A DNA stretch of 64,000 nt from contig NZ_LN794158.1 in the NCBI RefSeq assembly GCF_000953015.1, positions 1,674,001-1,738,000 on the forward strand, written 5' to 3'. Source of the stretch: Candidatus Methylopumilus turicensis (GTDB lineage Bacteria > Pseudomonadota > Gammaproteobacteria > Burkholderiales > Methylophilaceae). Of the stretch, positions 44,030 to 50,232 are shown piece after piece. The translations under genes and the position numbers were made by a program. Position 1 is the first letter of the stretch; each line of letters begins with the position of its first letter. Below the pieces are notes generated by a model. That model was not told the DNA's origin and did not search any database. It was given only the letters and a program-made list of their open reading frames with translations.

Positions 44030-45322
44030 ATGACATCACGTAATCAACAACTTTTTGAAAAATCACAAAAATTTATTCCTGGGGGCGTTAATTCACCCGT
44101 TCGTGCTTTCCGCTCTGTGGGTGGCACCCCAATATTTTTTAAGCGTGGCTTAGGCTCAAAATTGTGGGATGAAGATGGTAAAGAATATACAGATTACATT
44201 GGCTCGTGGGGGCCGATGATTTTAGGACACGCTCATCCAGAAGTGATTAAAACAGTACAAGAAGTCGCCGTGAATAGTCTTTCATTTGGCGCGCCTACGG
44301 CACGTGAATTAGACATGGCTGAAATGGTGAGCAAACTCGTCCCAAGTATGGAACAGCTCCGCCTTGTCAGCTCAGGGACAGAGGCCACAATGAGCGCGAT
44401 TCGCGTTGCGCGTGGTTTTACAGGTCGTAGTAAGATTGTAAAATTTGAAGGCTGCTACCATGGTCACGCAGATGCATTATTGGTGAAAGCTGGCTCTGGA
44501 TTACTTACCTTTGGCACACCAAGTTCGGCTGGCGTTCCCTCCGAGGTTGCTGCACATACGCTGACGCTCAACTACAACGATATACCCGGTCTTGAAACGC
44601 TATTTAAAGAAATTGGCAACGAAATTGCCTGTGTAATTGTCGAACCCATTGCAGGCAATATGAACTTAATTACGCCTAGTAAAGGCTTTTTAGAAGCATT
44701 GCGTGAGCAATGTACCAAGCATGGCGCCGTGTTGATCTTTGATGAAGTGATGACAGGTTTCCGCGTAGCGCTTGGCGGTGCACAGGCGCTCTACAACGTG
44801 AAGCCCGACCTTACTACGCTTGGAAAAGTCATTGGTGGTGGCTTGCCTGTTGGCGCGTTTGGTGGACGTGCAGACATTATGCAATGCTTAGCTCCTGTTG
44901 GCCCTGTATATCAAGCAGGGACATTGTCAGGCAACCCTGTCGCAGTGGCAGCGGGCATGAAAACTTTGGAGCTCATTCAAGCGCCGGGCTTCCATGAAAA
45001 ACTCACGGCAAGTGCAAAACGTTTGGTTGATGGATTAAGTCATGCGGCAAAAGAAGCGGGCATTTTATTTAGTGCGCAATCTGTTGGTGGAATGTTTGGT
45101 CTTTATTTTAGTGAAAAGGTACCCACCAGTTTCGACGAAGTCATGCAGTCTGATAAAGAAGCCTTTAACCGCTTCTTTCATGCCATGTTAGATGCTGGTT
45201 TTTACTTAGCGCCATCAGCCTTTGAGGCTGGATTTATATCTGCCGCGCATAGCGATGCTGATATTGATGCAACCATCGCTGCAGCCAAAAAAGTTTTTAG
45301 CGAGATGAAGGCTAGAAAGTAA
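44030..45322 (+). CDS. hemL: Glutamate-1-semialdehyde 2,1-aminomutase
   Basis: A PLP enzyme that makes 5-aminolevulinate for heme and cobalamin by the C5 pathway. The 430 residues begin [20 protein letters not shown]. The substrate gate [16 protein letters not shown], the Asp in [13 protein letters not shown] and the PLP lysine in [17 protein letters not shown] are clear. I use the ATG at 44030. An open frame upstream of it overlaps thiE and is not family-like. Confidence 0.96.
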
Positions 45323-45404
45323 CGGATTTAATTTTCTGCAAAAGCTAAGGTTTACATGCATATGTAGGTTGAAGCAGAGCGTTAATGTATATAGAATTAC
45401 AAGG

Positions 45405-45417
45405 TTTCACCGTGAAA
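45405..45417. promoter_or_regulatory. 13-bp palindrome upstream of gltB
   Basis: TTTCACCGTGAAA is perfectly symmetric about its central C. It lies in the 284-base gap between hemL and gltB, before the structured leader. It looks like a small repressor or activator operator, with no protein assigned. Confidence 0.4.
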
Positions 45418-45429
45418 TATGTGATTAAG

Positions 45430-45447
45430 TTGCTTCAATTTAAGCAA
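45430..45447. promoter_or_regulatory. Inverted repeat TTGCTT-N6-AAGCAA upstream of gltB
   Basis: A perfect 6-bp inverted repeat with spacer CAATTT. The form would suit a dimeric regulator. LysR-type regulators often control glutamate synthase genes, but no regulator gene is next to it, so this is only a candidate. Confidence 0.4.
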
Positions 45448-45488
45448 ATCAAGATCATATGTTAAGAATATGGATTAATTTACATTTT

Positions 45489-45606
45489 CCCGTGTGCTGA
45501 TTGTGATGAGTCTTTTCTTATCAAAAATCCAGCAACGACGGGGTTAGCGGACACCAAAACCCTCGATTTGGTGTCCGTTTTTATCAGTACTGACGAGGGA
45601 TAGGAA
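45489..45606 (+). promoter_or_regulatory. Structured gltB leader, candidate riboswitch or attenuator
   Basis: Stem P1 joins CCCGT (45489-45493) to ACGGG (45538-45542) and TGCTG (45495-45499) to CAGCA (45530-45534), with a small internal loop. P2 inside it pairs TGATGAG (45504-45510) with CTTATCA (45517-45523). P3 is a perfect 11-bp stem (45548-45558 with 45567-45577) followed by TTTTT. The P3 loop sequence CCCTCG (45560-45565) is exactly complementary to CGAGGG (45594-45599), which holds the gltB ribosome site. The leader could thus control both termination and translation. No known family was recognised. Confidence 0.65.
45548..45582 (+). terminator. Terminator-like hairpin in the gltB leader
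   Basis: CGGACACCAAA and TTTGGTGTCCG form 11 perfect pairs around an 8-base loop and are followed by five T. It ends 24 bases before the gltB ATG. It may be an attenuator of gltBD or the end of a separate small RNA. Confidence 0.75.
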
Positions 45607-48600
45607 ATGGGCAGCGGAATGCCAGAGCAGCAAGGTTTATATAGTCCATCTAACGAACGCGACGCCTGCGGTCTTGGTTTTGTTGCGCACATAAAAGGCA
45701 AAAAGAGCCATCAAATTGTGCAACAAGGTTTGCAAATTCTTGCAAACTTAACCCACCGTGGTGCGACTGGTTACGACCCAAAATTGGGTGACGGCGCCGG
45801 CATTTTGATTCAAATGCCAGATGCGTTTATGCGCAAAGAAGCAACCAAACTTGGCATTACGCTTCCGGCAATTGGCAACTACGCTTGCGGCACCGCATTC
45901 CTACCTCAAACTAAAAATGGCCGCGAAGCTTGTGAATCTATCGTTGCACGCATCATCCACGAAGAAGCGCAAACACTCTTAGGCTGGCGTGATGTACCGC
46001 GTGACAACAGTAACATTGCACAAGCGGCGAAAGACGTTGAACCAGTAATGCGCCAAGTGTTTATTGGTCGGGGTGAAAATGTAGCTGACCAAAATGCGTT
46101 TGAACGTAAACTATTTGTGATTCGTAAACGCATCGAACATGAAGTACGTGCGCTTAAATTAGACGATTCTGCACAATTTTATTTCCCATCATTGTCATCA
46201 AAAACCATCATCTACAAAGGCATGCTGCTTGCCAATGAGGTTGGTGTTTACTACACCGATCTAAATGACCCTGACATGATGTCTGCACTAGCCTTAGTGC
46301 ATCAACGTTTCTCAACCAACACCTTCCCTGCTTGGGACTTAGCACATCCATTCCGCATGATTGCGCACAATGGTGAAATTAACACCGTGCAAGGCAATAT
46401 CAACTGGATGGCTGCTCGTCACGAATCTATGCGCTCTGCATTAATGGGTGAGGACTTAGAAAAGTTATGGCCACTCATTGTGGAAGGTCAATCTGACTCC
46501 GCTGCATTTGATAACGCGCTTGAGTTGTTGGTGGCTGGCGGCTACTCATTGCCACACGCGATGATGATGTTAATTCCTGAAGCATGGTCCAACGAAAGCG
46601 CCAACAAACTGATGGATGCAGATCGTCGCGCTTTCTACGAATATCACGCAGCCTTGATGGAGCCTTGGGATGGCCCAGCAGCGGTTGCCTTCACAGACGG
46701 CACCACCATTGGCGCGACTCTTGACCGTAATGGCTTACGTCCAGCACGCTACCTATTAACAGATGATGACCATGTGATGATGGCCTCTGAAATGGGCGTG
46801 CTGACATTCCCAGAAGAAAAAATCATCAAGAAATGGCGTTTGCAACCAGGCAAAATGCTGCTGATTAACCTTGAAGAAGGCCGCATCATTGACGATGCTG
46901 AAATCAAGAAAAGCCTAGCCGAAGCTAAACCATATAAAGCATGGATTGAAAAAACGCGTTATTCCTTAGCGGACTTACCTAAGGTGGATGCGCAACCAGC
47001 GATGGCTGCCAGCTTAATGGATACGCAGCAAGCGTTTGGTTACACTCAAGAAGATGTGAAGTTCGTCATGCAACCAATGATTGCTAATGGCGAAGAGGCC
47101 TCCGGCTCGATGGGTAACGATAGTGCGTTGTCTGTGTTGTCTAATAAGCCAAAAGTGCTATATCACTACTTTAAGCAATTATTTGCCCAAGTGACCAACC
47201 CACCAATTGACCCAATTCGTGAAGAATTAGTCATGTCACTGGTCACTTTTATTGGACCGAAACCAAACCTACTAGCGATTGATGAGACTAACCCACCAAT
47301 GCGTTTAGAGGCTAGCCAGCCTGTACTCACGTTAGTGGAATTAGAACAACTTCGAGCCATTGATACGCTCACTGAAAACCAATACCGCGCGTTAACGTTG
47401 GATATTACTTATCCAATTTCAGAAGGCACCGCAGGGATGGGCGCCGCCGTTGAAGCAATTTGTGCTGCGGCCAGCAAAGCAGTGCGTGATGGGTACAATT
47501 TATTGATTCTTTCAGACCGCGCAATCAGCAAAGATCGCTTAGCGATCCCTGCATTATTAGCCACATCAGCGACGCATCAGTCATTAGTACGTGCAGGCCT
47601 CAGAACCAGCACTGGCTTAGTGGTTGATACTGGTTCTGCACGTGAGGTTCATCATTTCGCTTTGCTTGGCGGTTACGGTGCTGAGGCTGTTTGCCCTTGG
47701 CTCGCCTTCCAAACCATTGCAGATATGGTCAAAGGTGACTCCTACGAAGCCAATAAAAACTTCATTAAAGCGATCAGCAAAGGGTTGCATAAAGTCATGT
47801 CCAAGATGGGTATTTCAACCTACCAATCTTATTGCGGTGCGCAAATTTTTGAAGCCATTGGCCTGAACACGCCATTTATTGAAAAATACTTCACCGGTAC
47901 AGCGACGCATATCGAAGGCATCGGCTTAGAGGAAGTTTCAACAGAAAGCTTCAAGCTTCACACAGCTGCCTTCGGAGACGATCCTGTTTTGGCAAACGCG
48001 CTAGATGCGGGCGGTGAGTATGCTTACCGCATCCGTGGTGAAGAGCATATGTGGACGCCTGATTCAATTGCGAAACTACAACATGCAACGCGAACTGGTG
48101 AAGCCAGCACCTACAAAGAGTATGCAAAACTGATCAACGACCAAAGCCGTCGTCACATGACCTTACGTAGTTTATTCGAGATTAAATCTGCTGGCGCCCC
48201 TGTGCCACTAGAAGAAGTTGAATCAGCCAAGGAGATCGTTAAACGCTTTGCAACGGGCGCAATGTCTTTAGGTTCGATTTCAACTGAAGCGCATGCCACA
48301 TTGGCGATTGCGATGAACCGTATCGGTGGTAAATCAAACACTGGCGAGGGCGGCGAAGATCCAAAACGCTTCATCCCTGTCGCTAAAGCAAGCTCAATGG
48401 CTGAAGTCATTGGTGCAAGTTTGATTGAGCGAGATATTCCGCTACAAGCTGGCGATTCAATGCGCTCAAAAATTAAGCAAGTTGCTTCTGGCCGTTTTGG
48501 TGTGACTGCTGAATACTTAGCAAACGCTGACCAAATCCAAATCAAGATGGCGCAAGGTGCAAAACCTGGTGAAGGCGGTCAATTACCTGGCCATAAAGTC

Positions 48601-50232
48601 AGTCCTTATATTGCGCAATTACGTTTCTCAGTGCCGGGTGTTGGCTTGATTTCACCGCCTCCACACCATGACATTTACTCGATTGAAGATTTGGCGCAGT
48701 TGATTCACGATTTAAAAAACGCGAATCCAAAAGCCGACATCTCAGTGAAGTTGGTATCAGAAACTGGTATTGGAACTGTCGCAGCCGGCGTTGCTAAAGC
48801 AAAATCAGACCACATCGTAGTGGCTGGTCACGATGGCGGTACTGGCGCATCTCCAATTTCATCGATCAAACATGCGGGTACACCGTGGGAACTTGGTCTG
48901 GCTGAAACACAGCAAACGCTGGTGCTTAACCAATTACGTGGCCGCATCGTGTTGCAAGTTGACGGTCAAATGAAGACGGGTCGCGATGTATTAATTGGCG
49001 CGTTACTAGGTGCAGATGAATTTGGTTTTGCGACAGCCCCACTTGTTGTTGAAGGCTGCATCATGATGCGTAAATGCCATCTCAATACATGCCCAGTTGG
49101 TGTTGCTACGCAAGATCCTGAGCTGCGTAAACGTTTTACTGGTCAGCCTGAGCATGTTGTGAATTACTTCTTCTTCGTTGCTGAAGAGGTGCGTGAGTTA
49201 ATGGCTGAGATGGGCATTCGAAAATTTAACGATCTAATCGGCCGCGCTGATTTGCTCGATATGCAAAAGGGTATCGATCACTGGAAGCTTGCTGGTCTTG
49301 ATTTCAACAAAATATTCCATCAACCCAAAGTGGATCAATCTGTTTCGTTGTTTAATAACGACGTCCAAGACCATGGACTAAAGAATGCACTTGATAATCA
49401 ACTGATTGTACTTGCAAAACCAGCACTAGAAAAAGGTGAGAAAGTCACGATCGACTTGCCGATTACCAATACAAACCGCACTTGCGGCACCATGCTTTCA
49501 AACCAAGTCGCGACGATTTATGGCAATGCTGGCTTACCTGATGACACCATCAGCATCAAGCTACAAGGCACAGCGGGTCAAAGTTTTGCAGCATTCTTAG
49601 CGCATGGCATCAGCATTGAACTCACGGGTGAAGGCAATGACTACGTTGGCAAGGGCTTATGTGGCGGTCGTATCGTCATCAAACCACCTGTCGCGTTCCG
49701 CGGTGTGGCGCATGAAAACGTGATCGCAGGCAATACTGTGATGTTTGGTGCAACCACGGGTGAAAGCTACTTCCGCGGTGTGGCAGGCGAGCGCTTCTGC
49801 GTCCGCAATTCAGGCGCAAGCGCTGTTGTTGAGGGCGTTGGCAACCACGGCTGTGAATACATGACTGGCGGCACAGTAGTGGTGCTTGGTCTCACTGGCT
49901 TGAACTTCGCAGCAGGGATGTCAGGCGGCGTGGCATATGTGTACGACGAAGATGGTATGTTCAATAAACGTTGCAATATGGCCATGGTATCGCTTGAGAA
50001 AGTCGAACCTGCGTCAACATTCGGTACAAATAGTATCAACCACTTGAACCAAGCTGACGAAACAACGCTCCTAGCATTGATCGACAAGCATATTACCTAT
50101 ACTGGCAGTGAACGTGCTAAAGCGCTTCGTGCAGACTGGGAAAATGCGAGAAGCAAATTTATAAAAGTGATGCCAAATGAATACAAACGCGCGCTTAATG
50201 AGCTCGCTGCTGCCAAAAAGGAGGCTGCATAA
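45607..50232 (+). CDS. gltB: Glutamate synthase (NADPH) large subunit
   Basis: Converts glutamine and 2-oxoglutarate to two glutamates with GltD. The 1541 residues start with a propeptide of about 20 residues before the N-terminal nucleophile Cys21 ([13 protein letters not shown]). The class II amidotransferase domain is followed by the central domain, the FMN barrel ([24 protein letters not shown]), the [3Fe-4S] ligands [15 protein letters not shown] and a C-terminal GXGXG-type beta helix. The probable ribosome site is GAGGG at 45595-45599. gltD follows two bases after the stop. Confidence 0.97.

Follow-up and report, generated by a model that had tools for sequence, protein, structure and literature searches.

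The gltB leader as a candidate site of translational control

The stretch of DNA analyzed here, 64,000 nucleotides in length and referred to below as the window, contains gltB, the gene for the large subunit of glutamate synthase, and raises the question of whether the RNA leader of this gene folds into a conserved structure that governs its translation. The question matters because glutamate synthase is the point where ammonia enters amino acids. A preliminary description of the window had placed three stems (P1, P2, and P3) in the leader, together with a 6-base match between the P3 loop and the segment near the ribosome site, and all of these elements are present at the positions given below (L1 and L3, loops, and S1 and S2, helices, of the predicted pseudoknot; SD, Shine-Dalgarno).

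45369..45397, + strand: gltB promoter, TTGAAG (45369-45374), 17 nt, TAGAAT (45392-45397), with a predicted start at ∼45403
45403..45410, + strand: 5′ end of the leader RNA, GGTTTCAC, adjacent to the promoter and kept with or without the pseudoknot
45489..45543, + strand: P1/P2 hairpin (hairpin A), with a CCCGT/ACGGG closing stem and a variable inner stem with bulges
45548..45558, + strand: 5′ arm of P3, the 5′ strand of helix S1, CGGACACCAAA
45559..45566, + strand: P3 loop, A-CCCTCG-A, in which 45559 (A) is the 1-nt loop L1 and 45560-45565 (CCCTCG) is the putative 5′ strand of helix S2
45567..45577, + strand: 3′ arm of P3, the 3′ strand of helix S1, TTTGGTGTCCG
45578..45582, + strand: five T following P3, resembling a terminator solely in the window genus and leader L010
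45578..45593, + strand: third pseudoknot loop, L3, 16 nt in the window and variable elsewhere, including the invariant G 45592
45594..45599, + strand: CGAGGG, the putative 3′ strand of S2 and the strongest anti-SD complement in the leader
45607..50232, + strand: gltB, with in-frame ATGs at 45607 and 45619

The next gene after gltB is gltD. Within 45250-45700, TTGAAG-17-TAGAAT is the sole promoter candidate on the + strand, and this layout is kept ahead of many gltB genes in relatives. Therefore, the leader most likely begins near 45403, well upstream of P1, and would hold all of the features listed. A start downstream of 45545 would have spoken against the preliminary description; the only promoter candidate puts it at ∼45403.

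The first transcribed bases of gltB are GGTTTCAC or GGTTCCGC within Methylophilaceae; in other families CCTTTCGC or GCTTTCGC is frequent. When the region from the -10 box through these initial bases (45392-45410) was compared in L010, L022, L031, L043, L064, L102, L106, and L111, it was found to be more widely conserved than the pseudoknot, and it could be an operator or a site of initial-transcription control.

The P3 loop and a downstream segment form a predicted H-type pseudoknot

In the window, P3 is a perfect 11-bp hairpin with a calculated folding energy of -16.6 kcal/mol, followed by TTTTT, and the CCCTCG in its loop (45560-45565) and CGAGGG at 45594-45599 are exact reverse complements. 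The 161-nt segment folded with better energy than all 200 of its dinucleotide shuffles (z = -2.97). A combined score for hairpin and loop complement at least as high as that observed was reached by none of 200 leader shuffles for L001, L010, or L043; for L022 and L029 the counts were 3 and 5 of 200, respectively. A terminator scan did not report P3, probably because an A-T/G-T extension of the stem consumes two T of the run that follows it.

Covariation in P3 was counted in nine leaders representing seven genera. The helix was paired in 96.8% of cells, compared with a mean of 82.8% after shuffling, four of its seven pairs were altered on both sides, and neither the covariation score nor the number of doubly changed cells was reached in any of 500 shuffles. 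Additional compensatory changes were found in L002, a member of the window genus (outer C-G to U-A), and in L043 (A-U to G-C). While S1 thus shows compensatory change, S2 is invariant apart from a wobble: its six pairs are standard in each row that was counted, and its only variation is C-G to U-G (L026, L027, and L034), with no true covariation. The complementarity between the loop (CCYTCG) and CGAGGG is intact in 24/24 leaders, and its return at one position ahead of gltB speaks most strongly against a chance match; both strands are nearly invariant. What supports the putative helix S2 is therefore that two invariant segments, otherwise isolated, match each other perfectly and at specific positions, rather than compensatory change.

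The arrangement of these segments has H-type geometry, with an L1 of 1 nt (A), an S2 of 6 bp, a junction of 0-1 nt, and an L3 of at least 13 nt, in a compact element of ∼55 nt. Most leaders have an S1 of 7 bp or more, and S1 contains mismatches in L058, L157, and L158, the last having the most. The length of L3 ranges from 13 to ∼105 nt across leaders, and among the unpaired bases only A 45559 and G 45592 show no variation between genera. As read from these sequences, the core would be a classic H-type pseudoknot, in which a hairpin loop pairs downstream and the loop lengths are sterically possible. The structured cis leader that had been proposed for gltB, with pairing between a hairpin loop and a downstream segment, is thereby borne out as a predicted structure, which is conserved across genera and in which P3 covaries. 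We also observed that L3 in L026 and L027 (genus g22) is enlarged to ∼105 nt by hairpin-forming sequence.

Distribution of the element

The gltB gene was located in 176 of 187 Methylophilaceae genomes, and a named relative at 97% identity is a Methylophilaceae bacterium. P3, the loop A-CCCTCG, and the partner CGAGGG lie directly before gltB in the 24 leaders examined, which come from 21 genomes (10 of the 24 Methylophilaceae genera) and three named genome records. The recurring core is a hairpin with the loop A-CCYTCG, a spacer, and CGAGGG ∼20 nt ahead of the start codon. Eight leaders were used to build a covariance model, R1, which covers the hairpin together with its 3′ context. It recovered leaders outside its training set (L043, L009, L001, L010, and L024), and it blindly matched two named genomes that are divergent, L157 (E 6e-6) and L158 (E 2e-3), again before gltB. 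When R1 was searched over the whole family, matches with E up to 0.02 were obtained in 21 genomes from 10 of the 24 genera, each directly before gltB, with no genome having a second match at this threshold; no second copy of the element was found in the window's own genome. The element is a same-strand cis leader element located between the promoter and one gene, gltB.

Outside Methylophilaceae, no gltB-linked matches were obtained with R1 in 399 genomes of the order, or with model R2 in 369 genomes of the class plus the 399 of the order, in searches whose filters are strict and may drop weak or divergent relatives (R2 lost G179, which was found by R1). Weak out-of-family matches did not adjoin gltB where checked. 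An equivalent hairpin with an SD-pairing loop was absent from 27 gltB leaders of the order's other families that were read or scored, and no relatives were found in IMG/VR. Three leaders from other families (L106, L116, and L185) have a different short hairpin before gltB, followed by GATGATCGAGGTGAGGAGC ahead of the start, with a T-run after the hairpin in L106 and L185; this is possibly another leader structure.

Within Methylophilaceae, the sampled members of Methylotenera, Methylophilus, and Methylopumilus lack the pseudoknot. The lineages that carry it are scattered over deep branches of the family in a GltB tree with limited branch support, as expected for an old element that has undergone several losses, and the simplest reading is that it was kept from the family ancestor and lost several times. 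This methylotroph family would then provide an evolutionary series, with deep lineages that retain the element and others that lost it. Three leaders of genus g20 (L013, L015, and L016) contain a CCCTCG...GAGGG pair with a poor hairpin ∼100 nt before the gltB start, which is a possible decayed relic of the element.

P1/P2 is a feature of the window genus

Each of the nine members of the window genus retains the P1/P2 hairpin, and its inner stem shows weak covariation among them. The hairpins that other genera carry at this site are unrelated to it, and in L010 the site is nearly empty. P1/P2, which the preliminary description had included in the structured leader, is thus real in the window, but its detailed conservation is confined to the window genus. 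A closing helix, formed by 5′ GUUUC with GGAAAU before ATG 45607, was seen in the folds of most members of this genus and of L010, and is not general.

CGAGGG is an SD-like segment at a fixed distance from the conserved start

The gltB gene begins with two in-frame ATGs, 12 nt apart (45607-45621). The second, ATG 45619, or the codon equivalent to it, is the start on which almost all leaders converge, and it alone is conserved beyond the genus; ATG 45607 is specific to the window genus, its equivalent being ATA in L010 and L043. The segment CGAGGG is the window of highest complementarity to the anti-SD of the 16S tail in 15/15 leaders, and in 14/15 it ends 18-20 nt before the conserved start, despite variation in L3 length and S1 sequence. 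CGAGGG is therefore SD-like, but it lies too far away to be an ordinary SD for the conserved start at 45619. In the window genus, 7 nt separate it from the in-frame ATG 45607, which is normal SD spacing, and it could be the SD of this genus-specific start. The suggestion that the P3 loop pairs with the gltB SD thus holds in that the loop exactly matches the best anti-SD segment of the leader, but the spacing is normal only for ATG 45607.

A model for control of gltB translation

We consider it somewhat probable, at a little better than an even chance, that the leader contains a cis-acting, translational-control H-type pseudoknot that gates the SD-like element. Predicted structure, covariation in S1, conservation, specificity for gltB, and anti-SD complementarity point to a pseudoknot at this position; that the ribosome is masked, that masking acts in the direction described below, and that a signal exists to shift the balance are what we infer from its placement.

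In the leader, spanning ∼45403-45606, P3 would correspond to S1, and the loop CCCUCG would pair with CGAGGG beside the ribosome-binding region to form S2. The single A in loop 1 and the junction of 0-1 nt suggest, from the geometry implied by the sequence, that S1 and S2 may stack coaxially. The loop would act as an anti-SD mimic, competing with the ribosome for CGAGGG(AU), such that formation of the knot would reduce ribosome docking and gltB initiation, and opening of the knot would allow more docking. In the window genus, the upstream in-frame ATG 45607 may use CGAGGG directly as its SD. In other genera ribosomes would dock upstream, at a CGAGGG that ends 18-20 nt ahead of the start codon, and at this distance masking would be indirect. 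S2 may be invariant, while S1 drifts with compensatory changes, because one S2 strand must fit two partners. A point against gating is that many Methylophilaceae, and all other families examined, do without the pseudoknot.

Other explanations for the conserved leader

The dispensability of the element in related genera, and the purely structural character of its conservation as far as seen, would also fit an mRNA-stability or ribosome-recruitment element, that is, a constitutive enhancer that is conserved without being a regulatory switch. However, pairing of the loop with the best anti-SD complement of the leader should depress constitutive initiation instead of raising it, and we regard this explanation as unlikely.

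Marginally less likely is a small-molecule riboswitch, in which the pseudoknot, as a compact aptamer comparable to those of SAM-II or preQ1 switches, would bind a metabolite reporting nitrogen status (for example, glutamine or 2-oxoglutarate) and switch gltB translation. An H-type pseudoknot beside the start region, a single target gene at the ammonia-assimilation node, an invariant S2, and the invariant unpaired bases A 45559 and G 45592 are all compatible with an aptamer, but known aptamers conserve their pocket, while the loops here are otherwise unconserved in sequence and length (13 to ∼105 nt for L3), the phylogenetic range is very narrow, and no second gene uses the element. Glutamine, glutamate, and 2-oxoglutarate had been put forward earlier as purely conjectural ligands; nothing was found that points to them, and few unpaired bases are conserved. 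A new riboswitch class, defined as a minimal H-type pseudoknot that senses nitrogen status and controls gltB through an anti-Shine-Dalgarno mimic loop, is accordingly doubtful to the same degree.

We assign a slightly lower probability again to recognition of the invariant ACCCUCG loop, of CGAGGG, or of both, by a trans-acting protein or small RNA. Both S2 strands are invariant in sequence while S1 varies, which fits a factor that reads the letters themselves, but the perfect complementarity and H-type spacing would then be coincidental or secondary. A CsrA-type site, AGGGA, was rejected as a candidate since it is not conserved, having been lost in L029 and L034, which retain the pseudoknot.

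Transcription attenuation, with P3 and its T-run as an intrinsic terminator that releases a short RNA, and the pseudoknot or P1/P2 setting read-through, is very improbable: although the 11-bp, -16.6 kcal/mol hairpin followed by TTTTTAT is kept in 9/9 members of the window genus and in L010, no T-run follows P3 in L011, L022, L024, L029, L034, L041, L043, L046, L058, or L157, no conserved alternative pairing that could serve as an antiterminator was seen, and the proposed transcript would end before the S2 partner. Since the T-run is restricted to the window genus and L010, termination at P3, as had been suggested for the window, is not a shared function of the element. A leader peptide was also rejected, because no convincing one was present in the three leader frames, and indels between genera argue against coding.

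Relation to known regulatory RNAs

At the Rfam gathering threshold, the window yielded tRNA only, and matches with E up to 5 within 45300-45700 were limited to one chance match, with no glutamine riboswitch family among them. In the literature searched, which mostly did not extend to subscription papers, no account of a leader RNA for gltB in Betaproteobacteria was found. As a compact element that occurs in at least 10 genera and is absent from Rfam, it is a candidate for ligand or factor screening.

The preQ1 and SAM-II riboswitches are small H-type pseudoknots that act as translational switches. The gltB element shares their H-type layout, with a predicted second helix at or beside the ribosome-binding region, but it has no visible conserved ligand pocket, and its third loop is longer and variable. 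The E. coli rpsO pseudoknot is recognized by ribosomal protein S15 and controls the gene that carries it. Like rpsO, the gltB leader has a putative pseudoknot in the translation-initiation region that would control ribosome engagement; unlike it, the gltB element is linked to nitrogen metabolism, and the gltB leader has no Rfam match.

Among regulatory RNAs associated with nitrogen metabolism, the glutamine riboswitch family comprises the glnA and Downstream-peptide motifs, and its genes, like gltB, belong to nitrogen metabolism and include glutamate synthase (PMC2864571); the gltB leader, however, gives no match to the covariance models of this family, even at E up to 5. The gltD (SRC-18-1) motif is a candidate riboswitch that lies upstream of a gene for glutamate synthase; in sequenced organisms it has been seen solely in the Selenomonadales and the Veillonellales, each time ahead of gltD (PMC8632094). 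Both it and the element described here are structured glutamate synthase leaders with predicted cis-regulation through masking of the ribosome site, but the present element precedes gltB in Methylophilaceae, so that the two are set apart by gene and taxa, as judged from the description of the motif. The gltB element is best filed as an uncatalogued translational-control leader pseudoknot.
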